Origin: a virus
Virus record (IMG/VR): IMGVR_UViG_3300020160_002143
Coordinates: 1-48,545 of that record
Length of the DNA: 48,545 nt
Strand: one strand, 5' to 3'
Shown: positions 6,878 to 31,515 of the stretch, piece by piece
Layout of the letters: each line of letters opens with the position of its first letter
Numbering within the stretch: position 1 is the stretch's first letter
The notes under the pieces: generated by a model
Database searches by the model: none
What the model saw: the letters and a program-made list of their open reading frames with translations, nothing else
What the model was told of the DNA's origin: nothing
Program-made: the position numbers and the translations under genes

Positions 6878-6909
6878 TTAATTCCATCGGCCGTTAACAA
6901 TTTAAAACC

Positions 6910-8721: not shown

Positions 8722-8723
8722 TC

Positions 8724-9728
8724 ATGATCACGCCCGAAGAAGAAGACGACAATATCGCTTCGATGATAGCCGGGCAGGAGGCTGACATTGCCGACATGCC
8801 TAACCCGCTTGCGCCACGCGGGCCGGACATGTCTAAGGCCAATGATGGCGATATCGCCGAGGCAATGGGCTATGACAGGTCTATAATCCTCGACCGCTTC
8901 CGCGCAGAGGCAGAGGGAAGGAAAGGCTTTGCCGCGCAGGCTGACGCCTATAGGCAAGGCTACCAAAAGGCTATGGCTGGCCAGCAAAGGGTGGCGACGT
9001 CTCAGGCGATCGCGCAGGCCAAAAGGGAGGCAGACCCGAGGTATGCCGCCCAGCAGTTCTACAGTCAGACGGGCGACCTAAATGCGGCCATAACAATATC
9101 AAAGTCGACCGGGTCGGCATTGTTTGACATGGGTCAGGAGATTGACCTTGGCTCATTTGGGGCCTTCGCAATGGCGCCTAAGGGCAACATAGATCTGGAC
9201 GACGGGAAGGGTGGACGGATGCGCGTCCCCACTAGGTGGTACGCCGAAAAGAAGGGCATAGGCGTCATTCCGTTCACAAGCGGAGACGAGAACGCCGACG
9301 CCTTCAGGACTAGCCTTAACGACACCCAGCGCATAATGGGGCTCCTTGATAGGCTAGATACCCTGTATAGTGATAGCGGATACATAGGGTCCCTGTCTCC
9401 GACTGTCCGGGCCGCAGAGGCAAAAGCCATCGAGAGCCAGCTTGCCACCGGTATCCTGAAAGTCCTTAACGGGACAAAGAGCTTGGCCAGCGTCTCAGAG
9501 GGTGAAATGAACATGATCATGGGAAGTATCCCTCAGGCCGCGTCTACTTGGTTCACCAACCTGAGAGGCAACGAGAGCGTGAAGCTGAATAAGCTACGCA
9601 ACGATTTGACCAACGTTATCTTCAGGGCGGCCGACCAGAATGGAATTGCTTTGATACCCATGAAGAGACAGGCTCCGGCCACGCGTGAGGGAGGGAAAAC
9701 CCCTACCCCTAGCGGAGTCACTTTCTAA
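8724..9728 (+). CDS. Unknown 334-residue virion-region protein
   Basis: 334 residues. The N-terminal 120 residues are helical and rich in Asp, Ala, Gln and Arg; the middle is beta-rich; the C-terminal 100 residues are again helical. It starts two bases after the previous stop, and its TAA overlaps the giant gene's ATG (TAATG), so the two are probably translated together. It could be a chaperone or a partner of the giant protein, but that is inferred from coupling only. Confidence 0.7.
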   Translation: MITPEEEDDNIASMIAGQEADIADMPNPLAPRGPDMSKANDGDIAEAMGYDRSIILDRFRAEAEGRKGFAAQADAYRQGYQKAMAGQQRVATSQAIAQAKREADPRYAAQQFYSQTGDLNAAITISKSTGSALFDMGQEIDLGSFGAFAMAPKGNIDLDDGKGGRMRVPTRWYAEKKGIGVIPFTSGDENADAFRTSLNDTQRIMGLLDRLDTLYSDSGYIGSLSPTVRAAEAKAIESQLATGILKVLNGTKSLASVSEGEMNMIMGSIPQAASTWFTNLRGNESVKLNKLRNDLTNVIFRAADQNGIALIPMKRQAPATREGGKTPTPSGVTF

Positions 9729-12700
9729 TGGAACAGCCTACCTCTCCGGAGCCCCAGAAAACCGAAGTTAACGCAGATCTAGACGTACAGAAGACGCGAG
9801 ATCTGATGGCCAGCCTCAGCGCTGGAGGAGTAAGCGTCGCTCCTGCGCCCTCGTTTAACTTCGAGACAGAGCAGACAGAGCAGGAGCCCGTGGCCAACGG
9901 CCAGATGACGGGCAAGGACTACTTTGAGTTCTTCCAGCAGAACAGATCTGCTAGGTTTACGCACGACGAGCAGGGCAGGCAGGCGTTCAGGATGATGAGC
10001 GAGTACATGGATACTCGAAAGGTGGACATTATGAAGGCCGCAGAAGGGGCGCTAGGCCAAATGGCCGAAGAGCTAGGAGGCCTTGCCAACGCACCACTTC
10101 GGCCGGATAAGTTTGCGGCCAGCACAGTAGAGGCGGCCGCAAAGGGCCTCAGGGATATGTATGGCATCTTTGCCCAATCCGAAGACCCGGGCAGTCCTTT
10201 CTTCAAGCTGAAGAGCTGGATGATGAGGGTATCTGGCGTTGATGACGGGGACATTGACTCGCAGATGAGGCACTTCCATGAGGCCCGCGAGCATAACAAC
10301 AAGTCCTACGAGTACATGGAGGGCAAGGGGACTATCGTTGGAGAGCTACTGCCTGAAGGATACAAGGAGATGTTCAACAAGCTGGTGGACCCTAAGTTCG
10401 CCAACGCACTTTCTTACGCAGTCCTTGATATCCCTGAGATAGTAATGTCCAGCGGCATGTCTACGCCGGCTACCGCCGCTAGGCTTGCCGCGATGGCCGC
10501 CCCGAAGGCCGCCGCCAAGTCTGGAGCCTTTGCCGCTTGGTCTGCTAGGTCCGCAGAACGACTCAGCAACTACGCCGCTATCGCAACCGGCAAGGCACTC
10601 GAAACGACCGGCAAGGTCGTCAAGGCTCCGTTCAAAGCGATATACGGAACGAGCCAAGCCGCGGCCCAGCTCGGAGGCGACTTCGCTGGGAACGCCGTGC
10701 GCAACATGGCCACGGCCGAAGTAATTGAAGCTGGAGCAGAAGTGATCGGATCTACTGTAAGGCATCCTGCCATGGGCTTCTTGCGAAGCTTTGGATTGGA
10801 AGCGTTCGGAGAGCTGGCTCAGGTCGCCGGCGCCGACGTAGTTGATCGAGCTCTTGGTAAGGTTAACGTCAAGATGGACGTCCTTGGTGCCACCACCCTT
10901 GAAAGGCTTGCCGCCGGAACCGCGAAGGGCGCCGACACCATGTCCCGCGAGGCACAGCTTCTCGCCAAGGGATTGAACGCGTCGATAGGATGGGCCCCCA
11001 GCATGTCTGGTCAGGCCCTGAAGACGATGTTCAGGGATGGCATAATAGGCGCAGGACTCGGATACGCTAACTCTCGCGAAGAAGGCGCCGGAGCAGGCCT
11101 TGGAATGGGTATCGGATGGGGCGGCATCTCCGGAACTGTCCGGCATGTCCACGCATACACTAACTACACCCACCAAGACCAGAGGGTAGTAGATAACTTC
11201 AAGCAGTTCGTCGTTCCTAGCTTTGCTAGGCTTCATGGCGTCACCGCAGGAGAGATGGCTAGGCGCTTCTCGGATCACGTTCAGTCGTTCGGCGACCTCA
11301 GGACCTCGGCGATAGAAATGTCGCACCTGTCCACCCTTATTGCCCACGAGACGGGTCTTCACGGCGACGGGAACGTCATATTCTACTTTGGCAACAGCGC
11401 GGCTGAATTCGACAAGGTCTTAATCGAGTCGAACATGAAGGCTGATCATGTCGAAAGGATGAGGGCCGAGTTCCGAAACCTTGGGAACAACCCTGCCATG
11501 TTCTCGGACGTGGAGCTCACGCCCGGAAACGTCAAGAAGCTAATCGCCATAAACTCCGACGCCTACAGGCCTACCTCTGGAAGGCATGAGATCGCGCACA
11601 TGCTCTTCAGGTCCGTAGCCGAGGCTAATGGAGACATGGATAACATATCCATTCCTGACCCTATAACCGGACAGCCTAAGCACCACGGAAAGACCTTTAG
11701 CCCTAGGTATCTTTCTACCATATTCGGCGCATCCAAAGACTTGGGCGTCATGCCTGACGTTGCGTGGGAGTCCGTCATACAGCATTATAGCGCCCTTCAG
11801 GCCTATCAGTATCACGCCTCGCTTAAGGTCGCCAACGCCAATGAGCTCGCACAGCAGTATGGAGCTTCAACCAAGAACTTGGTCACAGAGTTCAGGCACC
11901 TCTACACCACGGGAACGCTAGACCTTAGGGGTAACTTAGATCACATCGCGCTGGTAAAGACCCTGACCAAAACCGCCGAAGAAGCTTTCGCCTATTACCA
12001 TGCGGCCACGAGCAACGTGTTCCCCGTGGACAAGTACGTCAAGGATCCGGTTCACCGGAATATGCTCAGGGCTTGGGCTGAAAACAGGGCGGCCGCCAAC
12101 AACAGCCGTATTATATCCGACCTAGAGCTGGCTGGCATAGAGATCAAGGGCAAGCTGACCAACAAAGATGGAAGCATAAAGCTCTTTGACGAAGAAGGAA
12201 ACCCGGCCATCGAAACTTCTGCGTACGATGACGGAAAAGTTGTCCGACTCAAGGCCATGGATACATGGATTGAGTCCATCATTAAGTCCGCCTACACGCG
12301 CGGAGAGGTCAGCGTAAGCACCCTTGATCCCCTCAGGCAGGAAGCCTTGGCTAAGACCTCTGGCAAGGAGCACCTGTTCAATGCCGTCGCCGGCGGAGGC
12401 ATGAGGCTCAAGCCCAAGAAGGAGCTCGACGAGCTGGCTACGGCTCAGTCGCAGAAGATACTCGGAAGCATATCCCAGCTCCCCGAAAACATAAGGCCGT
12501 TAATCCAAGAAGGTAGCGACGGGACTAAGCGTATATTCCTTGAGCAGATCAACGGCGAAGGCCTAGAGGCCATCAGGAAATCCGGAGCCTTTACGGACAG
12601 GGAGTTCAATGAGCTTGCCGGAATGATACACATCGCGCGTCAAGGAGCTCAGGGCAACCCCGTGTTCAACGTGATGAACTGCACCCTGCTTGCCGCCACT

Positions 12701-15700
12701 CAGCAAGTGCGGCGTGGCGCGGCCGTGTTCAGGCTTACCGGAGAAGACGTGCCCGTCACTTACAGGACGTTTGTTCCTCTCAGCGTAGAGGTATACTTCA
12801 AGGATAAGGACAAAGACGGAAACCCCCTCAGATCTCCTCAGGGTAATATTGTCGTCCACTCTTTGGACGTTGCCGCCGAGAACCGAAGGCTGACGAAGAT
12901 GTTCAAGCGTGGAGACGTCCAGCAACTCTGGGGCGGAAACTTCGACGACTTCGTAAAGAGCTATCAGGACTACGTCATCAATCAGTCCGGACTTAACGGG
13001 CCTAGGGTTCCTACTGCCGAGCTGTTTAGGCCGCGCTTCGGCGCCGACGCCGAGCGAGTCAGGGACATAATGTACGAGACTTTCGGCGGGCGTAAGCCCA
13101 AGGACGCCTCGTTTATCAACACCCCGGCCAACGGATACCTTGGCGGAGCCGACGACCCTAACAGGCCGTTCTACAGCATGAGGTTCGACACCATGTCGGA
13201 CACCCGCATGCACCCCACTTCTTGGAACGCACGCTCTAGGCTTCCCTTGTTCCCGTACGTCCCTTCCGCCTACGAAGGGATCACGCGCAACATGATGTTC
13301 TCCGGTTTCGAGAAGCTTCCTCTGGCCGGCGGCATGAGCTTCCTGCGCAACAGGAACGGGTTTGAGATCTATCAGGGAGAAAAGGGCTTTAACCTTTTCG
13401 ACATGTTCGGCATCAAGGTCGGAACCTTCAAGTCGGTAAAGAGCGCCATAGATAAGGCCAACAAGGAGGTAGCTAACTACGACGAGGCGGACCTTCAGCC
13501 GGCACAGGAAGGACATACTGTCGTCGTCAACGGGCGCGAGGAAGAGCTCCTGTTCCCCTCCACTCCTTCGTTCATGGTCAAGGGCCTGCACGACAGGTCT
13601 AGCGCAATACTTCATGCCTCTTCAGGGGCTCCCGGAGGCCTTGCCTCTACGCTTCTTGGAGCAATAAGGGACATTGAAGTGAAGATAGACGCCAACGGAA
13701 ACATGACCGACGCGGCTGGAAATCCGATCAACGAGAAGGTGTGGGCGTCCATAGGCATAACCGCAAAGGTCAATTCCCTGATACCGAACAGCGGGTTCGA
13801 TGACTCTGTTAGGGTCGGCGTTGGCAAGAGCTCGCTTACGTCCGACATGGAGGCCACCAATGCCGGCAATGAAGCCGTCAGGTTCTCCCCTGCTTGGATC
13901 AGGGCCCTTCAGTCTCTTCCGAATGGATCTGACTTGGCCAATAGGCAGATGGCGCTTCGCATGGCTATGGCCGAGCGCGTCTCGAAGGCTTTTAAGGATG
14001 GGAAGATACCTATGCCGTCGGCCAATGGAAGGGGCATGTCTTTCAACTTCATGCAGATCGCAGACGCGATGGAAGTCGGATCCAACGATTACGCCACAGT
14101 CGAGGCGGCATTTGATGCCGTCGTGCAGGATCAAAAGGCAGACATAACGGAGCACCTTGTAGATCGAATTGATAAGTTGTTCGGCTTAAGTCTTCCCGGG
14201 TCGAGCAGCAAACTTCCGTTCGTAGATCCAAATGGCGTAAATAGGTCAGTCATATCCAAGCGACAGAGCTTCGCGGCATATGGAGTCACCATAACTCCTG
14301 CGCTTCAGGCCTCCATAATGTCCGGACAAAATCCGGCGCTTGCCAGAACCCTTGGTCCGGCCTTTGCCGAGCTTGCCAATCAGCATTCGATACAGTCTGG
14401 AGATCCCGTAAAGCCATTCGTCATACAGGCCAAGAACGCGGCCGAGTATAACCAAATGATACAGGCCGGCGGCGTCCCCAATGAATGGCTGATGTACCAC
14501 GAGGCCCAGACCCCTAGGTTCACCGAAGAGTACCAGAGCCTGATAGACTCTGTCATGGGCTCCAACGCGAACCCGCTTAGGTTTAAGCTTAACAGCCCGG
14601 ACGCGGCCCTTCACGTCAAGGCTTTCATTGATACCGCCAAGGCCGCGGCGAGTAAGGATGGTCCGTACAGGAAGTCGGTCATAGCTGAGTTCGGGCCCGA
14701 CGGGGTAAGGCCTAACGCTTCCGGCAATAAGGAGGGAGCACTCTTCGTCGTCTTAGCCAACATAAATGACCCGGACATAGAGGGACTCATGTCGCAGGAG
14801 TCCGTGTTCAGGGCGATCAGGGTGGCCATGGATAGGAATAATTACACTCAGTTTGCCGATCCTGACTTAGCCAGAGCTCAGGACATGGCGAAGCTCCAAT
14901 TCCTGATCCACAATCTTCAGTTCGAGGACAACAGGTATCACCACGAAATAAAGACCACGACGGACAGAGAAGTTGGCATAAGAGGCACTCGTGAACTGAC
15001 GGGCGGGCCGGTCCCATCTATGGGCGCCTACTCCGAATACACCACCGCCCCGTCGATCTCTTATCCTCCGGGCATCGTTCAAGGTCCCAATAGGGTAACT
15101 CTTTCTCCGGTCGGGATAATGAACAACGTGAACCATTTCACGCCGGGAAGGTTCAGGCATGTGATGGACCGCAAGGGCTCGATGCTAAAGGGCAACGTGC
15201 TTACTGTTCTGTCGGGAGATCCGGGTAGTAGCGCGCACCTCGGAAGAAAGCTTTCGGACATATCATACATAGTTAGCACGACTGACGAAAGTGTACTGCT
15301 AAGCGGACAGGGCTCCGGAATGACCTCCACCCAAGTCCCGAAGAACATGGGCCTTGTGGATGGGGCTCAGGTCCCCGGAGACATGTTCTTTAACCCGGGC
15401 GACAGGTCTATAAGCCCTGCAGGCATGGCGCTTGCCATGCGCACGAAGAGCAAGGCCGGCATAGCAAACATGATTAGGTCATCTAACGATGCAGGCTATA
15501 AGTATCTCCGCAGGTACATGTCAAAGGAAGACGTCGCCTACATTAAGACCAACTTCATAGACGTCCTTGCCAAGGAATTTATTGCCTCAAGTGGGGATGT
15601 TATGTTTGGCCACCCTGCCACCATCGCTCCCATAATGGCTAACTTGACTGCGCTGCTTGATGGCATCATGCCGCAGGAGAAGGTGCAGTTCGCCGAGGAA

Positions 15701-18700
15701 GTCATTGCGGGCATGGCGCTTAACTTCGCCAGCCTCAGCCCGCGAAGCGACATGGGGCCTTTGATCCGAAAGGGCCAAACCTCTAGCAGTCTTCCCCCTA
15801 GGCTTGGAGCTGACCTGCAAAGGGCAGATGCCGTCTCCGGGATGGCTAAGGTGCTTCAGGGAATACAGCACTCGGAGCTTGCCGATCAGGACTCTAGGTA
15901 CGTCACAAACCTGAAGGAAAAATGGACCGGGCACACCAGAAGGGGCGCTGAGTTCCTGAGGAACGGCTTCGTAACCCTTGAAGCTAGGGCGATCAACAAC
16001 ATCAATGATCCTGCATCGAGCCTGATGATGCTTGCTGGTCGCCAAGCTATTGAGCGACTAGACTCAGACAGAAAGGACCTGATGCGAGGTCTTGGCCTCC
16101 TTGGGAAGGCAAAGGACTTCTTCGGCAATGAATTCGATTATCTCGAGATATCGGATAGCAGGTCTCGCCTTCGCATGGACAAGTTCGGCGGGCGCGTAGC
16201 CATGATTGTCGCCAATGGAATGACTGACCCGGATGGGCACATCAAGGCCGCCGTAGCTGAGATAGCTTCCGGAGTCTATGACGGGCCTTGGACCGAGGCC
16301 CTTATGGACCATGCCAACAGGCAGGGCCTCAGGCTGAAAGACATATTCAACCACGACGAGCTGTTCGGGCTTTATCCGGGCATGGGAGAGACCCAGATAA
16401 CCTTTGAGAACGGAACCTTTGGAGCCGGTTACTACGGGTCTGGCGGCTTTGGCAAGATAGCATTGGACGTGTCCCTATTGCTCAGGGATGAGCTGGCGGA
16501 ATACGACGCTACTGACGGCATCAAGAGTGAGTTCGCCGGTCAGTTCATAGACTACAAGGGCAAGGGCGGCCTCACCTACGAGGAGAACCTCAGGAGGGTC
16601 ATCATCCACGAGATCCAGCACATGATCTATCACGCCGAGGGATGGGCTGAGATCTGGGATTGGAGCCTGACCGACAGCGAGACCGGCAAGTTTGATGCCC
16701 GGGACATGATATTCTCAGGTCCGGCCGCGCTAACTAAGATTGAGAAGATGCTTGGCGGATCGGAAGATACGCCTGTCGTGGACTCCTTCGGCTCGGACAT
16801 TGACGAAGCCTTTGTTCTCAAGGTGGGCCACATGCAACATGAGACCAGCCGAATACTCAGCTTTGACAGTAAGAATAAGACCATAAGGCAGGCCGACGAG
16901 GCTACGGCTACGGCCGCCATAGAGCGCATCATCCACGCCCCTCTGGCGCAAAAGATGATGAGGAATGTCATACCTGAGACCATCAGGTGGACTCAGGCCT
17001 TGGACGGAACCTATCACATGCTTGCCAGCGCGCTCGCGAGCAAAAAGTCCTCCATGGACCCGGCTGTGTATAACAGCGCCATGGCTAAGCTGAACGACGC
17101 CAACTCCGCCGTATCCCTGATCTCTACCAAGGTCAGGATGCTTGAGTCGCAGGTAAAGGCAGGCCAAGCCGACCCTAAGGTCGCATCCTTATCCCTGTTG
17201 CGCGAGATCGAGGATAACCGCAGGTTCTTGTCCATAGAGGATCCGTCTTGGTCCACGCTGTTCGACAGCTTGGCTCCCAGCGTACAGCACAACCTGAGGA
17301 CTATGTCCTTTAGGGGTCAGTCCCAGCTCTGGGCTCAGCTCCTAGAAGCTCATGAAGACCTTGGCGCGCGCGGAGGAAAGATGCCGGGCAATTGGGCCCA
17401 ATGGCACATGGTTAAGATAGCTAACGCCATGGGAAGCATGATGTACCATGCCCAGCCAGACGAAATAACCGCAAGGGTCACGGAAGGAAGGGCGAAGATG
17501 ACCACCAAGGAGCTCGCCGCTAGTCCTCGGTTCATACCGGCTCCCGACAGGGATCTGGCCATGTTCTATCAGGTCGGCAAGTACATAGGTCAGGTCGCGG
17601 ACAACCCGCGCCTCGCTATTCCTTTTGACGACAGCCTGTTCATGATCGGCGGAGCAAAGGGCTCCGAAACATTCACCTCCGAGCTTCTTGCCGGAGGAAC
17701 CCCCAACGCCTTCAGGCTTGGGATGAGGATGATGTCGAGGGCGGCCCTGCTTTCGCATTACGTGACCATCAGAGACGTCGGCAATGCGTTGCATCACGTC
17801 TCCTACTCTAGCAGAGGCTGGCGCATCGGCGCCGACGGCAAGCCTGAGTTCGTCTTCTCTATCGGCAACCTGAGGGGCGCCGAAGGATGGGCTGGGGATG
17901 TGAGGAGCAAGAACATGAACGTAAGCGACATGGTCAATAAGGCCGTGGATCTTTACCGGGAGTTCCCGATGGACCAGCTTCCGCAAGGAAGGAACATGGA
18001 CATGGCTAGCATAGACTCAAAGGTCGCCGAGTCCGCCGCGTTCCATCAGGTTAATCCGAAGACTACCGAGACCCAAAACGCTCTGGTGGACCTCATAAAG
18101 TCCAACAGGTTCATCAACACCCCGGAGTCCGGATCAAGGATGAACTTCTCGAATGGCTTCGCGCTTCTGGCCGGCCTGTCGAAGGACGGAATTTCCGTGG
18201 GCATAGAAGATCTGGCCAAAGCCATGGGCGCCACCATTCAGGTAGACAGCATGGTGACGATGCAGAGCCCCGTGCTCAATGCTATCCACGCCGGATCAGT
18301 CCCTTTAGTGATGACCGGAGGAGGAATAGTCGAAGCCTTCAGGATGGCCGGCGTCGACAGCGACGGCATAGCCATGGCCAAGCTTGCCGAAATAGACAAG
18401 AACTTCGCCGGCATATCAATGTCTGCCGGAGAGCTTGCCGAGATAGTGGCCGTCATGCACGACGTTCCGTTTGAGAGCGTCATGCAGGCTCCCCTTGGAG
18501 CGAAAAACATACTATTGAACTTGGCTAACGCTGATGAGAACTTCGTCGGCAAGGTGAGGACCGCGCAAAGAGAGGCCGGACCCAGCTCTTCGTTTAGGGC
18601 TAAAATGTCGCTGTTCATCAATGAGGTGATATCCAAGGGCGAAAACACCAGCTCGAAGCCGTTGAGGTCCGTAGTGAACGCCGCCACTTTGAGCTCTCCG

Positions 18701-21700
18701 GGTTCTGGCATCATGTTCCTTCAGGAGATGCTTAACACCGAGGTTAGGCTTTCTTGGAGGGGCAACGAGGCCCTGCAGAAGTTGCTCGGCGGAGAAAGGT
18801 TCAGTAGGTTCATAGGCAAGTATCACGATCCGGCTACTAACGAGGTCGTGTTCAAGCACGTTCAAAGGCTGTCCAATATGAGATCGGGTTATGAGCTCGG
18901 CAAGATCAGCGAAGCTGTCCTTAATTCGTATTGCGCGAGGGTAGAGAGCCTTCTGATGGCGCTTACGCCTTTGGCTGAAAAGGTAGCCGACCACATACTT
19001 AAGCAAGGCGAGGAAGGGATGGCGAACGGCGTAGACATACTCGCCGACATGTACAGGACGGCCCTCACCGCAGCGCTTAAGGATATCACCAGCTCTACCA
19101 TAGGAACGGCCGACAACGATATGGGCGGCCCGATATACGACCTTAGGCGCAGGCTGGACATGAGGATCGGCACCCATAACTCGGATGCCAGCGCAGTAGG
19201 TAAGGCCTTTGAAAAGGCGGCAGAGCACGCGCTCGGATGGACCCAAGGTCGCACGGATAACGCCCTCCTTCTTCCGGCCTTCGGGCTCATAGGCGGAGCC
19301 ACCGAAGCCTTTAGCAGGACCGCCAGCGCTAGGGCGAGGTACCTAGGAACGGCCGGGATCAGTTCGGCCCCTTCTTGGGGTCTGGATAACCTCGGATCAA
19401 CTTCCGATGCTCGTAATACTGAGCTCGCGCGCGGCGTAAGCGTAAAAGTCGGCCCCAACATGCCGGACGTCATCCCCGTGAACATATGGGGACAGGAAAT
19501 TGAAGTAGCTCGCGCAGAGAGAACCAATAGCCCGGGCACCAATGGACGCGTCAATGTCGGCGCGGACCAAGTGTTCATGGGGTTGGCTCAGGACATAAAC
19601 ATGACCAGCGACCAGAGCAGGCCGGGGTCATCCCAGAGCATGATCGATAGCAGGGGCATGGACCCTGCCATAGCTTCCACTATCTACGCGTCCCAGCGCC
19701 TCATCGCCATGGGACGTAACATCCTATCCACGATTGAGGCCTACAATAACCGATACACTCTTGGGATTGTCGCGGACGCCATACACTCGTACGCCGACAC
19801 CGGCCTTAGCGGAAGCGGGGTCCACCAAGCCCTCATGGAAAACCCGGGCGCGGTTCAGGCTCTCGCCTTGGGCGATCTGAGCAACGACCTGCAAAAGGCA
19901 AAAGCCTTCCTGACCACCGCTTATCAGGTATCCGACAGGCCGGACATGAATGTCGCTCTGGCGAACTTCGCCAACCCGATGGGCTCTGTCACACGATGGG
20001 GAGGATACGGAGGCATCGGAGAAGCCGCGCTCAGCTTTGATTACGGATCATTCAGGCCGCTAAGCCAGACGTCCGTAGTCCGCACTTATATCGGACCTGA
20101 CGGAAGGCTCGTCCTTACCAGCGCGTTCGAGGGTCTGGCTGACTCTAGGGACATAAAGGAAGCCCGCATAGTCGACGCGATAACCGGCACCGGGGTCTAT
20201 GAACGACACGAGATAGCTCACAAGCCTACCATGGTCATGCTTGAGGGTTGGCACCAGAGCCTGAACCTGTTCGCCGACGACGAAGCCGCGGATGGGGTCA
20301 GGACGTTCGATCAAGCCCACGGCGCAGACGTGTCCGCCAAGTCTATCGGCAAAAGGGTAGGTCGCACGACCGACATAGCCTTATGGGCCTTGACCGCGCT
20401 TCCCGCCGGCTATCAGGGGCCTGTTTCATTCATCAGGAGCTCCATGCTCGGGTTCAAGGACAATTGGTACCCTAGGAACCTGATGGAAACCATGACGGGC
20501 GAAACCATCATGGACGTCGTCCTTGGAAAGCTTGCGCATCATGACCAAGCGACGTTCGCGGCCTTGGACAGATACCTGAAAGACCACGGCTTCTTCGGCT
20601 CCACCTCCCGCGTGATAATGGGTGATGCCAATAAGAACGACTTCGCGCAAGCGTATGCGAAGTATGTGTGGGGTGCCGCGACGATGATAAACATCCGCAG
20701 GGTGGTCGACGGAATTTCCGAGCCCACCAAATCGATCGTCCTTGAGCTCATAAAGAGGGGAGAGGATACCGATCAGATATTAGAGACGCTGGCGTCCGGA
20801 CCTCAGTCTGGCTTCGGAAGTGGATCCGCTAGGCATGGGCACACCATATCCGCCCTTGAGATATCTCAGATATACGCAATGGCCGGGAACATGTTCATCA
20901 AGGACAAGGTTCTGCCCGCCCTTGAGTCCAGCGGCGTATTCAGCGCGGACCAGATCTCTACTGTGCGTAGGTTCGTTGACCACGTTACGGCCTACGACCC
21001 AACCACGATCGCGGACATAAGGAAGTCAGGAAGGGTAAATGACGGGCTTGTTCGCACTCCGGGAGCCGGAAGGGATCTTACTAACGGATCTTTATCTCAC
21101 TCCGGGCAGTACGGAATGATGGGAAGCCATAAGGGAGGGCTGATATATGGCGTGAACATGCATGACTACGGAGAGGGCGCCCGTGCCGTCGTCGACATGA
21201 TGAAAGGGCTGGCGAGGATTGAGGGCCGCAGGCCTAAGTTCGGCCTAAACACGGAAGAAGCCGTCAGGTTCCAGCTTCCGACCTTCGAGGGAGTTGAGAC
21301 GGGAGGCGTGACCGACGGGTACCTCATGGGCTATGGCCCCGGAACGTTCTACTCGGCCACTTCCGACAATGTCGGCAACGATGGCCTTATAATGACGAGC
21401 CATCATTATACCAAGGGAGCTCCGTACGGCTTCGGCAAGGGATCCGAAATACTTAAAGACGAAAGCGCTAGGTACTACGTTCGCAATACTCAGGCGGGAG
21501 TCGTAAGGCACGAGACTGTAAGCGTCGAAGAAGGCGGTGCGCTGGCGGCCCTGCTGGGTGTCCCTCAGTACAAGGACTTCTCTTATACGGCTCCCGAGTC
21601 CCAAGGAGTGGTCGTCTCCCCGTCTAGGACGGGAAGGTCTCCGCTTAGCTCGTCAGTAGTCAGGGCGGCCATGGTAGAGTCTATCGTGGCCGAGCTCAGG

Positions 21701-24700
21701 AGGGCTGGACAGAAGTCTCTGGACGTAGCTCCCGCCGGACACCACCTGTCCTACGTTGGGGCAGACCCGATGATGCTTGGCTCCGCGATCCAAGGAACTC
21801 CGGCAAAGGACTTCACCAAGACTTGGAATAACAGGGGCGTAAAGACAATCAACAGGACCCTGCAGGCAGGCTACGCCGCGAGTGTAGCGAATGAGGCCTA
21901 TGTGTCTCCGACCATAATGTCTTCTTCCCCTGTCGCGCATAACCCTCCCAAGGGCATAGCGCACGGCATGGGCATGACCACAGGATTGGGTACGGGAAAG
22001 AATACGGCGCCCGACCAGATGGCCGAGTTCGCCCCCAAGAAGGGATACGCATGGCAGAGGTTGCCCGACGGAAGGATAATGATAAACGTCACCGGCGACC
22101 ATCTTGGCTACAAGCTAGACCACAAGATGCTCACCAAGCGCCGGCCCGGATACGGGTTCAGCCTGATCGAAGGCCTCGGCTGGGATCAGCAAAACGGCAT
22201 GCTTATACCGATGCGCATCAACTCGCATGTCGGAATAGCTGACATGCTTTCCGTGATGGAGCACCCTCTGGCGGCTCTGTTTAGCCATGAAGACCCTGCA
22301 ATAATGGGTCAGCACATCAGGGCCGCACGGCTCAACAAGACCAAGGGTTTCCACCAGACCAGAGGGGAGTTCACCGGAGCTTCGTTCAATACGTATACGG
22401 GCGAAAGGATAATCACGAAGGGCTTGGATGACGGAATGATACAAGCCTACCTTGAGGATCCGAACGTAGCGCCTCAGGCGAAAGCTGAGATAGCCGCACA
22501 GCTCAACGGGCATCAGGCCGCCAACGGGTATGTCAGCATGGTTCTGCCTGCCGGCTCTACCCCTGAGCAGATCCGCAACGCCATATTGGCCCTCCACATG
22601 GAGCCTGTGCTTGGACTTACGATCGAGCATCAGTCTAGGCACGGGAGGGCCTATTCGTTCTCTCAATGGTCGGGACAGCTTGCCTATGAAAAGAACAGGA
22701 AGCTTCCCACCAAGGGTGGAACCGCGCCCGGCAAGTCCGGCATGAGGATGAGGTACTCCGGCGAGCAACCCGGAAGCCTGCCTGACGAAATACTTAAAAG
22801 CATGATGGAGACGGCCGCCATGATAAGTCCGCACCTCATGGATGATATCGACTCCCTCATAGGCAAGATGGTGTCTGGGGAGAACGGCTATTTCCTCCCG
22901 GACACGGAAAGGGTTCTCGCCTCCAACGGAGACACGGGTCTGGCGATAGCCTCCATGTTCCCCGGCAGGGCTGACCTGCTTAAGTATTCTTGGGATGCCA
23001 AGAACATGCATGGCATAAAGATCTGGAAGCGCACCATTCCTAAGGGCGCTACCGGATACCATGCCCATGTCGTTCAGTTCGACGCGCCCATGATGTTCGA
23101 CGCCGAAGGAGGCCTAAGGCTTGGGCCTAAGGCGATAGCGTTCAAGACCCCGGAGCAGGCTAATGCCTTCGCCAACAGGATGGCCGCCTCGCGCGGAGGA
23201 TCCGACATAGCTAGGGCGCTTGCGGCAGGAGAAGTCGAGGTCGTTGACGGGCCTGATACTCCGGCAAGCCCCTTCATGCCGGACACCTCGGTCGTAAAAG
23301 GCCAGATGGTCGATGGCATGAGGCTCAGGGATATGGAGAACGACGCCCACTTCGTAGGCGACATGGACACCCCCATGGACAAGAAGTCCGCGAGGGCCCT
23401 TGCCCGAGGACTCGGAGCCAACAAGCACCTCAGGTTCACGCCCGGGGAAAGCCTCATGATGGTCGGAGGAAAGACCATGGAGGAGCTGAATGACATTGTG
23501 AGGTCCAAGATTAACTTCGGATCCCCGATGGGGCCTGTGGGCTTCGCCTCTAAAGCGATGAACGCCATAATCATGGGCGCCCTTCCCAACGGCCAGAAGC
23601 TGGAAGCCATGGGTGGCGAGGATTGGTTTAAGATTATGAAGAAAGCCGGCGTGTCCGGCGAAGAGATGAGGCAGACCGGTCTTGCCGCCCTGTTCATCAA
23701 CGCCAAGGCGACCAAGCTGACTAGGATGGACGTCGCCGAGTTCTTGGCGGCCACCATACCCATGTTGCGCAGGCACGACTTGTTCACCACTCCTGAGCTC
23801 AAGCTTGGCGCCATTGCGGCGCTTGGCGGAGGCGTCGCCGGCGGAGATAACGCCCATAGGATCAAGGGCGGGTACGTCATGCCCTATATGCCGGACAGCG
23901 TCCTTCAGACGCGCATGAACCAGCATCAGGCAATCTCTGGAATGCTTGCTGGCTTGGAAAGGCTGGAGCTCACGCACAAAGCCTTAGTGGAGGCAGGCAA
24001 CAAGAACGCCGACGCGACCCTGATGGCCATCTCCGGGGTTAATAAGGTTCTCCTTACGTATGCCCAGAGGATTGGAATGGATCTGAATGAGCTCAAAGAC
24101 TTGGGCGCCGCACAGCTGGCCAAGCGCATACAAGACAAGATAGTCAACCTGACCAAGGAAGCCCACAAGGGAGACGATACGTTCGCCAATCTTAATTACG
24201 TAGGACTCGAGACGGCTCGACTTACGATGAACGACCACATTGCGGCGATCAGGTCTAACGATGAAATCACCGCGCTTGTCGGAGGGGTCATGCCCGAGCT
24301 TGTCTTGCCTCTCAGGCAGATGGTGGATGAGTTTGCAATGGGAACTAGGGTCATGGGACTGCCCATGGAGTTCACCAAGCAGAACGGCCCGTACGGATGG
24401 TCTAGCTCCACGGCTGAAATCGGCCTAGAGAACCTTACCGGTCAGGCCTTGGATAACTCATACAACAAATTCTGGGCAGGATATACCTCCGGCTACCAGC
24501 ACGTGCAGACCCACCCTGTCGTCAGGTTTGCCGACAAGTATGCCACCGAGCAGATTACGGGCTACATCGACCAGCTTAAGGCGATCAAGACCTCGCTATT
24601 GGATAAGACCAGCCCGGAGGACGTTGCCAAACTCGAGGCAAACCAAGCCCTGCTTAGCACGGCTCAAAGGGTTCTATCCGTAAGGGTTGCGCTCAAGAAA

Positions 24701-27700
24701 ATAATGGAGCCTCACTCCAGCCATGGACACTTCGGCGATAAGATGCCGGGCGGAGGAAACATCGGCGGAAGCAAGGGCGTACACGAGATAGGACACTCTA
24801 GGTTTAGCCAATCCCTGTCCGTATCCGGCCTGTCGATAGAGGGCTTTGCTGATCCGCTTGGCTTCAGCGGAGCGCTTGTCGGCGGGGATCGCAAGTACTC
24901 CCTCGTTCCCCTCGCCTATCCGATAACCCTGCTCGAGGAAGTTCAGTCTGACTTCGCGCAGAAGATTGAAGGCGTCGGCATCGAAGAGGACATGGCCGTC
25001 TATCTTCCCCTTGGGCCGGACGAAGAAGCGGCATTGGCGGCCGTTCCTCAGTTCAAGGAGATGATTGAGAAGGCGGCACAGCTTAGGGCGATGGCTAACA
25101 ATGTCACGGACTTCGTGTCTGGAAGGCTTGTGGCTACGATGATGGCGCCCGACGGAGACGGAGGCGTTGGAGTCGGATCTGCGGCGCCGGCTAATATCTT
25201 CATGAGGCTTCAGCTGGATGCCACCGACATGCTCAACAGGGGCATCTTGGCGGTTCAGGTTCCGGGCCTCTTGAGGGGCACCGGCCGCGACGTAAAACCC
25301 CCCGAAAGCCTGAAGGCCAGCCTTAGGGGCAAGTTCCAGCTCGAGATACCCGACAGGGTTCCCTCGATGGAGTTCGACCATGAGCTCTTGGGCATGCTGT
25401 CCCCGTATCAGGTAGGAAACGGCTTCAAGCACATACCTGAGCGAGTGCTCAGCGTTATCAAGGCCCGCATGAAAGCCAATATAGAGTCCACTAGGACTTG
25501 GTCCGACTCGTTTGGGCGCAGAATTGGCGGAGCCGGAACCGATGCGGCCTTGGCCATGATAGACACCAGCTCTATCCATGTGCTCGAGAACCTCAACCAG
25601 ACTCTCGGAAACATCATGAAGAGAGGCCAGCAACAGATGGCCGAGCAACACGCCGTCATAAAGAAGCTGGCTAACGAAATGAAGGGCGCTGGAGACAATT
25701 CCGACATTGCCAACTTCATCAATTCCTTGGCCCTGATCGGAGAGAGGTCGCATGGAGACCTTAACAGGTTGATCGGAACCGAGTTGGCCGGCATGGCCAT
25801 CCTTGACGAAGAAATAGCCATGAATGTGGCGTCTTACGCTAGGGGTGAGTACAAGTTCAACTACGAGGCCTTAGCTAGGCGCGCGCTCGAAAGGATACGC
25901 GCCAAGTACACCGACACCAAGACCTTCACCGGCAAGACCATCCTATTGGCGTACGAAGAGATGCTAAGGACTCCTGCCGAAGAAAGGCCGTTCATCAGTA
26001 TCACCGACAACCTGTCAGACCCGAAGCCGTTCGGCCCGGCCATGAGCATGGTTCAGGACCTAGCATCGCTCGTCAGGCAGAGTGGATCAGAGTACGCCGA
26101 AGCGTCAGAGTCCCTGCTGAACACTCCGTTAAACCAGATAGACGCGAACATAGCCGACTACGTAAACGCTATCGCCAATTACCTTGGCCAAGGCGGATGC
26201 TTGTATGTCAGGAATACCAACTCCGGAGGCCACATGTCCGAAGGAACCAACAGGACCTACAGGGTGTTCAGGTCGATGACGGAGGGTGGGCACGAGCGCG
26301 CGGCCGCTGAGCTCTTGAGCTACGTCCTTGAGAGGGGCGCCGAAGGGCACTCCATGGATCAGATCAGCATCGTTGAGGCCAATTACCACAGGCACAGCGG
26401 ATCCCTTGCCGGAGACTTCGTCAAGCAGGTCATCGAGGTGTTCGCAGGCCTGTCCAAGCGCAATGAGTTTGCGACCGAGGCGAGCGTCATCGAGGCCAAG
26501 GCCGCCGAGCTCAAGAAGGGCATACCGGATGTAGGGTCTTACAGGGACGACAGGATGGTTCCTGCCTCCCTTCCTTATTCCGGAGAGAACGTCTATAAAT
26601 CCATGCAGCTTCAAATGTCTGTCATGGACTCCTTGAACCGAGGACAGCGCGGCGTAGGCATCATGGATGCAAGCTGGCAGTTGACGCGCGGGCACGGACT
26701 TAGTGAGGATGCCACCATCGGCCTTGGTATCGGTCAGAACCGAAGGACTATATTGATGGGAATAGCTCCGGAGACCGCCTCAGCCATACAGACTGTCTTG
26801 GCTTGCTACGAAAGGATTACTGGAAAGAACCCGAGCGAAGTAGACGGACCTTATGGAAGCTTCCTATTCAGGCTCGGAGACATGGACGACAACACGGCCG
26901 GCGTCGTCATGAACGGGCAGAAGTTCGACCATGAAGGGTCAAGCGCCACGATAATCGGACACCTTGGCTTCATGCTTATGGGCATGCTCGACAGGATATC
27001 CCTTCAAATACCTCCTGAGTCCAAGCGCACCTTGGCTAGGGCCATCCAGAAGCTGTACGATAACGACAAGAGGTTCTTGGAAGAGATACGCAGACAGTCT
27101 ACGGACGGCCCTGCCTTTGTCGGCGGAAAGAAGAACATACAGCACCGGGTCTGGTCGTCTGACGCCGAAAAGTTCGTCGCCAACGGGCTCAAGGATGCGT
27201 CGCTTGTCACGATGCCTAGGCACACGGGCATGGGAGGATGGGGATACATAACCAATTACGGGCTTCCTCAGCACAAGGCCGACATAATGTTAGCCGGAAC
27301 TAGCAAGAGGTTCAGGGCCGAATACTCTTTGGACGCCTTCGAGAGGCCGGTACTTCAGGTCGAAGGAACCAACATGAACATGCTGGACCCCAAGACCGGT
27401 AAGCTGATCGTGTCTGTCGACGTAAGGGACGAAGGACAGATGAAGCTGTTCCGCGAGCGATACCTGCAGTCCTCCAAGTATGTAGGCGGGAATTGGATGG
27501 TTAGGTCGTTCCTTAAGGAGTGGGCCCCCGTCGGAGGATACGTCGACCTTACTGTCGTCGGATCTCATGCCTCTAACAAGGGTTCGTTCGCGGACTTCAA
27601 TTGGAGCAGGGGCCTTAATGCGCCTGACGCTGAGTTTGACGCCATCATGCAGGCCGTAAACCAGCGGTATGCCAGCGGAGATAAGGCCCTCGTTCTTGAA

Positions 27701-28753
27701 CGCGGCCATCAGCTGATGACCCCTGAGTATGCCGCCTCCGAGCGAGCCATTGAAGCGGCCGGCGGTGTGCTAAACGGAGGAGAGATAGCTCCGGTCACGA
27801 ACTTCGTGCTCGATAGCAATGAGTTCAAGGCGAACCAGCCGATATCTACTACATTCAATCCCCTCGCTATTGGTGAAAATGGGAACGCGAGATCTTCCTA
27901 CGGAGCTCCGCATGAGCCGGACATGGTGAGGGCGCTCGTCGCTACCTTCACCGGTTTCGGCATGCAGGCCACCTCTGATCAGGTAGCCTCTTACATCATG
28001 CGCATGCGCCACCCTGTCGTGACTACGCTCGTGCACTCCCCCGAGGGCAGGACCAAGGAGATGGACTTGGCGTTCAGGAGGAAAATGTCCGAAGGCGTGT
28101 TCCTGCTTATGGCCGCCGGCGAACGTCCTCGAGCTGGTCAGCTGTCTCAGACCGGCTTCCAGACACTCCTCACTACTGTGAAGAACAGGGAAGAGATGCC
28201 GATCAGCTACGCCAAGAACGTGCTCGTTGATAGGCTTGAGCTTCCGCCCTTAGAGCCAGCCCTTAAGGCCGCGCCTCGTAGCGAGGAAGACAAGCGTGTG
28301 CGCGTGTTTGACCGCAAAAAAGCCGTTAAGTTAATGAAAAAGGGCTATCCCGACACCCAGATAGCAAGTCACCTCGGCGTGTCCCGCGTAGCCATACTTA
28401 ACCTCAGGAAGAACGCAGGCGTGGCGCCACTCACGGAAGGGTCTGTCAAGGGCCAGAGGACGGGATATAGGACCCCTGATAGCGTGATAGAAGAATACGC
28501 AAAGGAGAGATCTGCTGGCGCGACGTGGCGCGAAATCAGGCAAAAGCGCGGACAGACAAGCCATACCATTGGGGATAGAATTAAGATACGGGTGGAGGCT
28601 AAACAAAAGAGTTCCAAACCGGACGGAAACAACCCGATGCCGACTGATAGCTTGAGCGACCCTCAGCATCCTAATCAGATCAGGCCTACCGAAAGCAGGC
28701 CTAGGACCGACATGGCACAACGTGAAAACATGGAGCGCGAAATGAATGAGTAA
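9728..28753 (+). CDS. Giant polyvalent virion protein (6,341 residues)
   Basis: One uninterrupted frame of 19,026 bp, 39% of the genome, predicted near 0.7 MDa. Residues about 220-370 are Ala-rich helices and 438-470 are Gly/Ala-rich. RHEIAHM (H620, E621, H624) is a zincin-like HExxH. A second, HEIQHMIYHAEGW (H2294, E2295, H2298, possible third ligand E2304), follows the phrase HDELFGLYPGMGE, the pattern of the HExxH-bearing large polyvalent protein domain. LLEEVQSDF (5068-5076) after HSRFSQS matches the EEIQSD motif of other polyvalent proteins. HVVQFDAPMMF begins near 4447. The C-terminus (about 6197-6233 and 6252-6291) has two HTH-like segments. Family knowledge says such proteins are packaged and delivered with the DNA. 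What this one does is unknown. It starts on the overlapped stop of the previous gene, and its end overlaps the holin start. Confidence 0.93.
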   Translation: MEQPTSPEPQKTEVNADLDVQKTRDLMASLSAGGVSVAPAPSFNFETEQTEQEPVANGQMTGKDYFEFFQQNRSARFTHDEQGRQAFRMMSEYMDTRKVDIMKAAEGALGQMAEELGGLANAPLRPDKFAASTVEAAAKGLRDMYGIFAQSEDPGSPFFKLKSWMMRVSGVDDGDIDSQMRHFHEAREHNNKSYEYMEGKGTIVGELLPEGYKEMFNKLVDPKFANALSYAVLDIPEIVMSSGMSTPATAARLAAMAAPKAAAKSGAFAAWSARSAERLSNYAAIATGKALETTGKVVKAPFKAIYGTSQAAAQLGGDFAGNAVRNMATAEVIEAGAEVIGSTVRHPAMGFLRSFGLEAFGELAQVAGADVVDRALGKVNVKMDVLGATTLERLAAGTAKGADTMSREAQLLAKGLNASIGWAPSMSGQALKTMFRDGIIGAGLGYANSREEGAGAGLGMGIGWGGISGTVRHVHAYTNYTHQDQRVVDNFKQFVVPSFARLHGVTAGEMARRFSDHVQSFGDLRTSAIEMSHLSTLIAHETGLHGDGNVIFYFGNSAAEFDKVLIESNMKADHVERMRAEFRNLGNNPAMFSDVELTPGNVKKLIAINSDAYRPTSGRHEIAHMLFRSVAEANGDMDNISIPDPITGQPKHHGKTFSPRYLSTIFGASKDLGVMPDVAWESVIQHYSALQAYQYHASLKVANANELAQQYGASTKNLVTEFRHLYTTGTLDLRGNLDHIALVKTLTKTAEEAFAYYHAATSNVFPVDKYVKDPVHRNMLRAWAENRAAANNSRIISDLELAGIEIKGKLTNKDGSIKLFDEEGNPAIETSAYDDGKVVRLKAMDTWIESIIKSAYTRGEVSVSTLDPLRQEALAKTSGKEHLFNAVAGGGMRLKPKKELDELATAQSQKILGSISQLPENIRPLIQEGSDGTKRIFLEQINGEGLEAIRKSGAFTDREFNELAGMIHIARQGAQGNPVFNVMNCTLLAATQQVRRGAAVFRLTGEDVPVTYRTFVPLSVEVYFKDKDKDGNPLRSPQGNIVVHSLDVAAENRRLTKMFKRGDVQQLWGGNFDDFVKSYQDYVINQSGLNGPRVPTAELFRPRFGADAERVRDIMYETFGGRKPKDASFINTPANGYLGGADDPNRPFYSMRFDTMSDTRMHPTSWNARSRLPLFPYVPSAYEGITRNMMFSGFEKLPLAGGMSFLRNRNGFEIYQGEKGFNLFDMFGIKVGTFKSVKSAIDKANKEVANYDEADLQPAQEGHTVVVNGREEELLFPSTPSFMVKGLHDRSSAILHASSGAPGGLASTLLGAIRDIEVKIDANGNMTDAAGNPINEKVWASIGITAKVNSLIPNSGFDDSVRVGVGKSSLTSDMEATNAGNEAVRFSPAWIRALQSLPNGSDLANRQMALRMAMAERVSKAFKDGKIPMPSANGRGMSFNFMQIADAMEVGSNDYATVEAAFDAVVQDQKADITEHLVDRIDKLFGLSLPGSSSKLPFVDPNGVNRSVISKRQSFAAYGVTITPALQASIMSGQNPALARTLGPAFAELANQHSIQSGDPVKPFVIQAKNAAEYNQMIQAGGVPNEWLMYHEAQTPRFTEEYQSLIDSVMGSNANPLRFKLNSPDAALHVKAFIDTAKAAASKDGPYRKSVIAEFGPDGVRPNASGNKEGALFVVLANINDPDIEGLMSQESVFRAIRVAMDRNNYTQFADPDLARAQDMAKLQFLIHNLQFEDNRYHHEIKTTTDREVGIRGTRELTGGPVPSMGAYSEYTTAPSISYPPGIVQGPNRVTLSPVGIMNNVNHFTPGRFRHVMDRKGSMLKGNVLTVLSGDPGSSAHLGRKLSDISYIVSTTDESVLLSGQGSGMTSTQVPKNMGLVDGAQVPGDMFFNPGDRSISPAGMALAMRTKSKAGIANMIRSSNDAGYKYLRRYMSKEDVAYIKTNFIDVLAKEFIASSGDVMFGHPATIAPIMANLTALLDGIMPQEKVQFAEEVIAGMALNFASLSPRSDMGPLIRKGQTSSSLPPRLGADLQRADAVSGMAKVLQGIQHSELADQDSRYVTNLKEKWTGHTRRGAEFLRNGFVTLEARAINNINDPASSLMMLAGRQAIERLDSDRKDLMRGLGLLGKAKDFFGNEFDYLEISDSRSRLRMDKFGGRVAMIVANGMTDPDGHIKAAVAEIASGVYDGPWTEALMDHANRQGLRLKDIFNHDELFGLYPGMGETQITFENGTFGAGYYGSGGFGKIALDVSLLLRDELAEYDATDGIKSEFAGQFIDYKGKGGLTYEENLRRVIIHEIQHMIYHAEGWAEIWDWSLTDSETGKFDARDMIFSGPAALTKIEKMLGGSEDTPVVDSFGSDIDEAFVLKVGHMQHETSRILSFDSKNKTIRQADEATATAAIERIIHAPLAQKMMRNVIPETIRWTQALDGTYHMLASALASKKSSMDPAVYNSAMAKLNDANSAVSLISTKVRMLESQVKAGQADPKVASLSLLREIEDNRRFLSIEDPSWSTLFDSLAPSVQHNLRTMSFRGQSQLWAQLLEAHEDLGARGGKMPGNWAQWHMVKIANAMGSMMYHAQPDEITARVTEGRAKMTTKELAASPRFIPAPDRDLAMFYQVGKYIGQVADNPRLAIPFDDSLFMIGGAKGSETFTSELLAGGTPNAFRLGMRMMSRAALLSHYVTIRDVGNALHHVSYSSRGWRIGADGKPEFVFSIGNLRGAEGWAGDVRSKNMNVSDMVNKAVDLYREFPMDQLPQGRNMDMASIDSKVAESAAFHQVNPKTTETQNALVDLIKSNRFINTPESGSRMNFSNGFALLAGLSKDGISVGIEDLAKAMGATIQVDSMVTMQSPVLNAIHAGSVPLVMTGGGIVEAFRMAGVDSDGIAMAKLAEIDKNFAGISMSAGELAEIVAVMHDVPFESVMQAPLGAKNILLNLANADENFVGKVRTAQREAGPSSSFRAKMSLFINEVISKGENTSSKPLRSVVNAATLSSPGSGIMFLQEMLNTEVRLSWRGNEALQKLLGGERFSRFIGKYHDPATNEVVFKHVQRLSNMRSGYELGKISEAVLNSYCARVESLLMALTPLAEKVADHILKQGEEGMANGVDILADMYRTALTAALKDITSSTIGTADNDMGGPIYDLRRRLDMRIGTHNSDASAVGKAFEKAAEHALGWTQGRTDNALLLPAFGLIGGATEAFSRTASARARYLGTAGISSAPSWGLDNLGSTSDARNTELARGVSVKVGPNMPDVIPVNIWGQEIEVARAERTNSPGTNGRVNVGADQVFMGLAQDINMTSDQSRPGSSQSMIDSRGMDPAIASTIYASQRLIAMGRNILSTIEAYNNRYTLGIVADAIHSYADTGLSGSGVHQALMENPGAVQALALGDLSNDLQKAKAFLTTAYQVSDRPDMNVALANFANPMGSVTRWGGYGGIGEAALSFDYGSFRPLSQTSVVRTYIGPDGRLVLTSAFEGLADSRDIKEARIVDAITGTGVYERHEIAHKPTMVMLEGWHQSLNLFADDEAADGVRTFDQAHGADVSAKSIGKRVGRTTDIALWALTALPAGYQGPVSFIRSSMLGFKDNWYPRNLMETMTGETIMDVVLGKLAHHDQATFAALDRYLKDHGFFGSTSRVIMGDANKNDFAQAYAKYVWGAATMINIRRVVDGISEPTKSIVLELIKRGEDTDQILETLASGPQSGFGSGSARHGHTISALEISQIYAMAGNMFIKDKVLPALESSGVFSADQISTVRRFVDHVTAYDPTTIADIRKSGRVNDGLVRTPGAGRDLTNGSLSHSGQYGMMGSHKGGLIYGVNMHDYGEGARAVVDMMKGLARIEGRRPKFGLNTEEAVRFQLPTFEGVETGGVTDGYLMGYGPGTFYSATSDNVGNDGLIMTSHHYTKGAPYGFGKGSEILKDESARYYVRNTQAGVVRHETVSVEEGGALAALLGVPQYKDFSYTAPESQGVVVSPSRTGRSPLSSSVVRAAMVESIVAELRRAGQKSLDVAPAGHHLSYVGADPMMLGSAIQGTPAKDFTKTWNNRGVKTINRTLQAGYAASVANEAYVSPTIMSSSPVAHNPPKGIAHGMGMTTGLGTGKNTAPDQMAEFAPKKGYAWQRLPDGRIMINVTGDHLGYKLDHKMLTKRRPGYGFSLIEGLGWDQQNGMLIPMRINSHVGIADMLSVMEHPLAALFSHEDPAIMGQHIRAARLNKTKGFHQTRGEFTGASFNTYTGERIITKGLDDGMIQAYLEDPNVAPQAKAEIAAQLNGHQAANGYVSMVLPAGSTPEQIRNAILALHMEPVLGLTIEHQSRHGRAYSFSQWSGQLAYEKNRKLPTKGGTAPGKSGMRMRYSGEQPGSLPDEILKSMMETAAMISPHLMDDIDSLIGKMVSGENGYFLPDTERVLASNGDTGLAIASMFPGRADLLKYSWDAKNMHGIKIWKRTIPKGATGYHAHVVQFDAPMMFDAEGGLRLGPKAIAFKTPEQANAFANRMAASRGGSDIARALAAGEVEVVDGPDTPASPFMPDTSVVKGQMVDGMRLRDMENDAHFVGDMDTPMDKKSARALARGLGANKHLRFTPGESLMMVGGKTMEELNDIVRSKINFGSPMGPVGFASKAMNAIIMGALPNGQKLEAMGGEDWFKIMKKAGVSGEEMRQTGLAALFINAKATKLTRMDVAEFLAATIPMLRRHDLFTTPELKLGAIAALGGGVAGGDNAHRIKGGYVMPYMPDSVLQTRMNQHQAISGMLAGLERLELTHKALVEAGNKNADATLMAISGVNKVLLTYAQRIGMDLNELKDLGAAQLAKRIQDKIVNLTKEAHKGDDTFANLNYVGLETARLTMNDHIAAIRSNDEITALVGGVMPELVLPLRQMVDEFAMGTRVMGLPMEFTKQNGPYGWSSSTAEIGLENLTGQALDNSYNKFWAGYTSGYQHVQTHPVVRFADKYATEQITGYIDQLKAIKTSLLDKTSPEDVAKLEANQALLSTAQRVLSVRVALKKIMEPHSSHGHFGDKMPGGGNIGGSKGVHEIGHSRFSQSLSVSGLSIEGFADPLGFSGALVGGDRKYSLVPLAYPITLLEEVQSDFAQKIEGVGIEEDMAVYLPLGPDEEAALAAVPQFKEMIEKAAQLRAMANNVTDFVSGRLVATMMAPDGDGGVGVGSAAPANIFMRLQLDATDMLNRGILAVQVPGLLRGTGRDVKPPESLKASLRGKFQLEIPDRVPSMEFDHELLGMLSPYQVGNGFKHIPERVLSVIKARMKANIESTRTWSDSFGRRIGGAGTDAALAMIDTSSIHVLENLNQTLGNIMKRGQQQMAEQHAVIKKLANEMKGAGDNSDIANFINSLALIGERSHGDLNRLIGTELAGMAILDEEIAMNVASYARGEYKFNYEALARRALERIRAKYTDTKTFTGKTILLAYEEMLRTPAEERPFISITDNLSDPKPFGPAMSMVQDLASLVRQSGSEYAEASESLLNTPLNQIDANIADYVNAIANYLGQGGCLYVRNTNSGGHMSEGTNRTYRVFRSMTEGGHERAAAELLSYVLERGAEGHSMDQISIVEANYHRHSGSLAGDFVKQVIEVFAGLSKRNEFATEASVIEAKAAELKKGIPDVGSYRDDRMVPASLPYSGENVYKSMQLQMSVMDSLNRGQRGVGIMDASWQLTRGHGLSEDATIGLGIGQNRRTILMGIAPETASAIQTVLACYERITGKNPSEVDGPYGSFLFRLGDMDDNTAGVVMNGQKFDHEGSSATIIGHLGFMLMGMLDRISLQIPPESKRTLARAIQKLYDNDKRFLEEIRRQSTDGPAFVGGKKNIQHRVWSSDAEKFVANGLKDASLVTMPRHTGMGGWGYITNYGLPQHKADIMLAGTSKRFRAEYSLDAFERPVLQVEGTNMNMLDPKTGKLIVSVDVRDEGQMKLFRERYLQSSKYVGGNWMVRSFLKEWAPVGGYVDLTVVGSHASNKGSFADFNWSRGLNAPDAEFDAIMQAVNQRYASGDKALVLERGHQLMTPEYAASERAIEAAGGVLNGGEIAPVTNFVLDSNEFKANQPISTTFNPLAIGENGNARSSYGAPHEPDMVRALVATFTGFGMQATSDQVASYIMRMRHPVVTTLVHSPEGRTKEMDLAFRRKMSEGVFLLMAAGERPRAGQLSQTGFQTLLTTVKNREEMPISYAKNVLVDRLELPPLEPALKAAPRSEEDKRVRVFDRKKAVKLMKKGYPDTQIASHLGVSRVAILNLRKNAGVAPLTEGSVKGQRTGYRTPDSVIEEYAKERSAGATWREIRQKRGQTSHTIGDRIKIRVEAKQKSSKPDGNNPMPTDSLSDPQHPNQIRPTESRPRTDMAQRENMEREMNE

Positions 28754-30708: not shown

Positions 30709-30712
30709 GAAT

Positions 30713-30784: not shown

Positions 30785-30790
30785 GAAGGA

Positions 30791-31507: not shown

Positions 31508-31515
31508 GGTGGGAG

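Follow-up and report, generated by a model that had tools for sequence, protein, structure and literature searches.

The window, as we term the 48,545 nucleotides of IMG/VR virus record IMGVR_UViG_3300020160_002143 analysed here in full, carries an exact 99-base terminal direct repeat (1–99, identical to 48447–48545), which indicates that the record is complete and that the genome comprises 48,446 unique bases. Its structural genes follow the order TerL-portal-g32-scaffold-MCP-g1...g5-g8-g9-g10-giant-g12, which is kept in relatives, as is the placement of the Erf, DnaC-like and exonuclease genes after g12 on the opposite strand. The plus strand encodes the terminase large subunit (TerL; 41273–42913), a portal and a major capsid protein (MCP) of the SU10 families (PF23899, 43103–45352, and PF17236, 46659–47993, respectively), three candidate co-ejected proteins, namely g8 (5756–6877; 373 aa, one cysteine), g9 (6910–8721; 603 aa, no cysteine) and g10 (8724–9728; 334 aa, no cysteine), and directly downstream of g10 a giant open reading frame (9728–28753). 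The next gene, g12 (29020–30147), encodes a 375-aa membrane protein with five hydrophobic segments and five cysteines. The giant gene closes the late operon, a position that corresponds to the block of ejection proteins in SU10, and its ATG overlaps the TAA of g10 by one base (TAATG), so that its translation is probably coupled to that of g10. The g8 frame overlaps a same-strand ORF (5020–5907) by 152 bases, and the start given by its longest ORF is probably too early. Four tRNA genes (Gly-TCC, Arg-CCT, Cys-GCA and Met-CAT) lie among the early genes on the minus strand (30634–37685).

The giant frame starts with ATG and encodes 6,341 aa (~688 kDa, pI 6.4, four cysteines), occupying 19,026 of the 48,446 unique bases (39.3%). 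The original prediction described one unbroken frame of 6,341 codons at 9728–28753 that takes 39% of the genome, is nearly twice as long as the virion RNA polymerase (vRNAP) of phage N4 (6,341 versus 3,500 aa) and is free of internal stops and low-complexity filler, and all of this holds: the frame is open throughout, only 10 of ~6,300 30-residue windows fall below 2.8 bits, and the gene contains no tandem repeats. Its length is far beyond chance, by which one stop is expected every 20–25 codons. The record is a metagenomic assembly, and the condition named as refuting the prediction was sequencing error that had masked stops or frameshifts. This is excluded by independent, uninterrupted homologues of 5.6–6.5 thousand residues at the equivalent location in at least 14 other contigs, with gene context kept both in those of 6,259–6,459 aa (G001, G002, G003, G005, G006, G010 and G027) and in those of 5,615–5,828 aa (G007, G008, G029, G030, G031, G033 and G036), together with a low dN/dS of 0.05–0.20 in every 500-codon bin of the giant gene when compared with a 91%-identical homologue. 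Purifying selection acts over the whole gene, which is real and of inherited size; an assembly or annotation artefact is refuted by the many contigs with equal frame length and by selection throughout, and retains virtually no probability. Antisense ORFs of 338–359 aa within the giant gene need not be invoked for any of these findings. Longer antisense ORFs (504–690 aa) lie over the capsid gene of three relatives (G004, 33799–35313; G007, 32654–34267; G010, 11677–13749) and are probably an effect of codon usage.

A TerL search of IMG/VR recovered at least 80 relatives, and two scans with core profiles added further ones. The size classes of the giant proteins correspond to six clades of the terminase tree, in which A and B are joined with full support. 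Complete homologues measure 6,259–6,459 aa in clade A, 5,615–5,828 in B, 3,467–3,649 in C, 2,586 in D, 1,574–1,796 in E and 1,654–1,917 in F. The giant and its homologues thus form a previously undescribed family in which lengths vary from about 1,600 to 6,460 residues and the N-terminal part is shared. In the 88-kb contig G015 (IMGVR_UViG_3300010970_000150) two distinct though related genomes follow each other head to tail, with TerL at 39329 and 82943 and giants of 3,511 and 2,586 aa, and the ends of G010 (1–2220 and 48495–51894) carry g20, a 387-aa gene and W25 in two copies, some of them diverged, perhaps reflecting two strains joined in assembly.

The shared part is a conserved N-terminal core (9728–13477; residues 1–1250), the sole region common to all six clades, with a colinear stretch of ~1,150 residues (about 58–1192) present in every clade. 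A core profile built with clades D and E included, and with C and F left out, recovered clades C (E 2e-43) and F (E 4e-12) in colinear alignment. The core (~1,200 aa) is absent from Pfam and PHROGs and is predicted to be helix-rich. Within it lies a predicted zincin-like region (11375–12007; residues 550–760) in which H620, E621 and H624 are invariant in a predicted helix that follows two strands, and E752 is invariant in a later helix. The order of these predicted elements would be that of a zincin; the motif reads HExxH in clade A and HExxxH in part of clade B, and the region gave no match in database searches. Two homologues of the core carry additional domains, ART-PolyVal in G021 of clade E (Pfam, E 2e-14) and an ASCH domain, just above the cut-off, in G025 of clade F.

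Beyond the core, the family carries ~500–5,200 residues of clade-specific sequence that we term cargo. Three stretches are colinear between clades A and B (residues 2100–3120, 3968–5130 and 5567–6135), and no homologue of the clade A/B cargo was found in clades C–F. The conserved blocks comprise residues 2550–3120 (17375–19087), residues 3968–4690 (21629–23797), which are the best conserved in the two clades, and a C-terminal block of residues 5567–6135 (26426–28132). An enzyme-like signature (24728–24961; residues 5001–5078) consists of H5001, GHxR (5023–5025) and EExQSDxxQ (5070–5078), and is invariant in 21 relatives. Residues 1500–2000 (14225–15727) form an exchangeable module that differs between near-identical relatives, and their dS of 3.1, against 0.12–0.27 further 3', indicates that they were swapped by in-frame recombination. 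Close to the C-terminus, a helix-turn-helix (HTH)-like tail (28301–28414; residues 6192–6229; HTH_23, E 0.001, below cut-off) occurs in part of clade A only. This tail alone resembles a stand-alone HTH family, a likeness that the window's own copy does not show by blastp; fusion of neighbouring genes was rejected as an origin of the cargo since the genomes with small giants hold no stand-alone cargo homologue. No internal duplication was found in the giant protein, nor a peptidoglycan hydrolase or a strong membrane-spanning segment; the lack of the latter two counts against an ejected protein.

The greater part of the cargo resembles no known sequence. A profile search against phage protein families, which the original prediction had proposed, returned no Pfam or PHROG family above the cut-off for the giant protein, and tblastn against known phages gave no match to residues 1–3000 or to the last ~3,000 residues. 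Structure prediction, proposed alongside it, was equally uninformative: AlphaFold models of two parts were of low confidence (pLDDT 61 and 59), and Foldseek searches of these models against PDB and BFVD returned nothing usable. The profile approach did succeed for one region by hhalign. A FEISD motif followed by a zincin with HEIQH (16607–16621) occupies residues 2100–2320 (16025–16687), and residues 2195–2320 match the zincins of Pseudomonas phage AF gp16, the 3,145-aa protein of MW202426 and EBPR podovirus 3 gp3 with probabilities of 96–98.5, compared with 0.1–0.3 for reversed-sequence controls (AF and MW202426). On this profile evidence the region is homologous to the zincin found beside LPD23 in known polyvalent proteins, the multidomain phage proteins, often over 2,000 aa, described by Iyer et al. 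2017 (PMC5512222). All three matched proteins have Pfam LPD matches, that of EBPR gp3 below the cut-off. The LPD23-like FEISD motif of the giant is itself not significant, and the giant protein contains no LPD or ART domain above the Pfam cut-off. Residues 3888–3960 had also been considered for their resemblance to a polyvalent motif, and were dropped because the likeness is not conserved in relatives.

AF gp16 (2,213 aa, LPD22 and LPD23) resembles the giant in being a very large multidomain protein encoded in a late or internal-virion gene cluster, in its homologous HExQH zincin, in having two HExxH sites and in being free or nearly free of cysteine. ART-PolyVal in a relative of the giant is a further likeness to polyvalent proteins, and the giant, with several separately conserved blocks in 6,341 aa and a zincin-type metallopeptidase (MPTase) domain of the polyvalent type, shares both their multidomain size and this domain. 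The giant differs from AF gp16 in being nearly three times longer, in the lack of an LPD domain above the cut-off and in a core that lies outside Pfam and PHROGs.

The two conserved HExxH regions, one with clear zincin homology, raise the question of whether the chain is a polyprotein whose own zincins would cleave it, ahead of head assembly or in its course, into several separate proteins that are packaged or used. Cleavage before packaging has been proposed for P1 DdrB (PMC5512222), and one relative, G032, makes the equivalent product from two genes (5490–22459; 2,367 and 3,289 aa) joined by a four-base ATGA overlap at the equivalent of residue ~2590, with no homologous residue missing or extra. 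This seamless split implies that the protein probably remains functional when divided in two. Against cleavage, no cleavage site was identified in the giant, N4 vRNAP is packaged uncut despite its MPTase domain, and a single frame of 17–19 kb is kept in at least 15 genomes, which suggests that a single chain is favoured. We therefore regard a polyprotein as a possible but distinctly less probable reading; it would be compatible with ejection, though incompatible with function as a single 688-kDa chain.

Comparison with N4 had been part of the original prediction, and it stands for the probable way of working (operon position, cysteine depletion and polyvalent domains) but not for kinship. N4 gp50 (Schitoviridae, 3,500 aa) is likewise a giant single cysteine-free chain at one end of the block of structural genes, contains an MPTase region with HExxH, a motif also present in the giant, and is expected to traverse a narrow tail as a thread (PMC12633501). 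The giant reaches almost double its length in a genome that is about 30% smaller than that of N4, and has neither detectable homology to gp50 nor an RNA polymerase domain. Hhalign comparisons with N4 vRNAP, T7 gp15/gp16 and SU10 gp24 gave a best probability of <2%. An RNA polymerase of N4 or T7-like type was rejected, as no piece of the giant has such a Pfam match and no tile matches N4 gp50.

The gene order matches that of the Kuravirus SU10, with which the window shares the succession TerL-portal-small gene-scaffold-MCP-...-ejection block, portal and MCP of homologous families, and a cysteine-free block. SU10 gp20–24 are ejection proteins, present in virions and absent from genome-release intermediates (PMC9509320), and gp24 was detected in particles by mass spectrometry with 116 peptides (PMC4281155). 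The likeness of gp24 (1,473 aa) to the giant is positional only, without sequence similarity, and the early genes of the window (Erf, DnaC-like and ExoVIII-like) are unlike those of SU10.

A late operon, huge size and a helix-rich core would also suit a passive structural virion protein (a tape measure, an internal core or a giant fibre) rather than a carrier of effectors. The 5,002-residue tape measure of P23-45, another very large virion-carried protein, shows that such a protein can have further functions, in its case that of an RNA polymerase (PMC10770324); compared by description, it differs in being tied to a long tail. For the window, a short tail is to be expected from portal and capsid proteins of the SU10 type. 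The absence of repeats and low complexity, the polyvalent zincin and ART domains, and a fourfold size range among clades whose capsid and portal stay similar also speak against a passive role, as does the presence of cysteine in large non-ejected virion proteins of N4 and SU10, so that we consider such a role improbable. Cargo proteins gp45–gp50 of crAss001, for which extrusion in a partly unfolded state has been proposed (PMC10172136), are comparable by description as very large virion-carried proteins, and differ in being several chains in ~103 kb.

Cysteine depletion separates the giant and its neighbours from the rest of the genome. The giant contains four cysteines against 51 expected from the other proteins of the window (P about 10^-16.5), and its family contains 45 in 98,786 residues. 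The two to four genes immediately preceding the giant mostly encode proteins with no or almost no cysteine in the majority of relatives; the block ends at g12, which has 5–10 cysteines in clades A and B, and cysteine makes up 2.6% of the DnaC-like protein, 1.6% of TerL and 1.1% of the exonuclease. Among controls, SU10 gp20–24, T7 gp15/gp16 and N4 gp50/gp51/gp52 have none, while N4 gp65 has 11, SU10 gp17 nine and terminases five to seven. Absence of cysteine is a correlate of ejection only, and there are exceptions (no cysteine in the N4 capsid protein, one in T7 gp14). We posit that low cysteine marks proteins which pass through tail and envelope as unfolded, threaded chains. A cytoplasmic enzyme made late in infection and never part of the virion would account poorly for the place in the operon, or for a depletion common to g9 and g10 and not seen in the DnaC-like, TerL and exonuclease genes; we judge it very unlikely, marginally more so than a passive structural role. 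Phage C75C1 (OQ984151, 38751..7576 and 8707–12738) has a structural block that closes with two 'hypothetical' proteins, of 2,769 and 1,343 aa, both free of cysteine and probably ejected too; neither shows homology to the giant core.

The host is probably a member of the Verrucomicrobiota, judging from terminase matches. Seven of eight distant TerL relatives in GTDB genomes fall in Verrucomicrobiota and Lentisphaerae bins, and strong TerL matches occur in 12 of 388 Verrucomicrobiota genomes versus 1 of 395 from the comparison phylum Bacteroidota. A search of Verrucomicrobiota genomes with the core gave one marginal match only. A TerL-bearing prophage-like region (G175:C1, about 3,067,600–3,093,500) on a 3.75-Mb Verrucomicrobiota contig encodes a 2,411-aa cysteine-free polyvalent protein with LPD3 and an HEVGH site at the same place, which is not a sequence homologue of the giant core. 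To our knowledge, few phages of Verrucomicrobiota have been described.

Taken together, the late-operon place matching that of SU10, the cysteine depletion, the polyvalent zincin homology, the ART domain in a relative and the layout of constant core and variable cargo argue that the giant is quite likely a polyvalent protein which a short-tailed phage carries in its virion and ejects. Under this reading, the protein would be expressed late, as part of the morphogenesis operon, and stored in the head alongside the small cysteine-poor g8–g10, and would leave through portal and tail, largely unfolded, ahead of the DNA. The N-terminal ~1,200 residues would probably serve as a constant module for packaging, ejection or an envelope channel, and the remaining ~5,000 residues would be cargo for the host interior. 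The two zincin-type peptidases may cleave the chain into active parts, and further domains may target host defence or metabolism during the first minutes.

The series of clades at about 1.6, 1.8, 2.6, 3.5, 5.7 and 6.4 thousand residues on one core shows the growth of this protein, and the swapped module and the split in G032 show that its parts are exchangeable. We give roughly even chances to the broader proposition that a phage lineage of Verrucomicrobiota carries a constant ~1,200-residue N-terminal chassis for delivery, whose lineage-specific cargo has grown about tenfold (~500 to ~5,200 residues) within one gene, and that cysteine-free blocks mark ejected proteins generally and so predict injected giants in phages not yet cultured. 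As a simple sequence sign, such a block could serve to recognise ejected proteins across many uncultured phages. If the giant is ejected, a 688-kDa chain would have to share a small head with the DNA and pass as a thread through a short tail; at nearly twice the length of N4 vRNAP, it would represent an extreme case of protein injection by phages.
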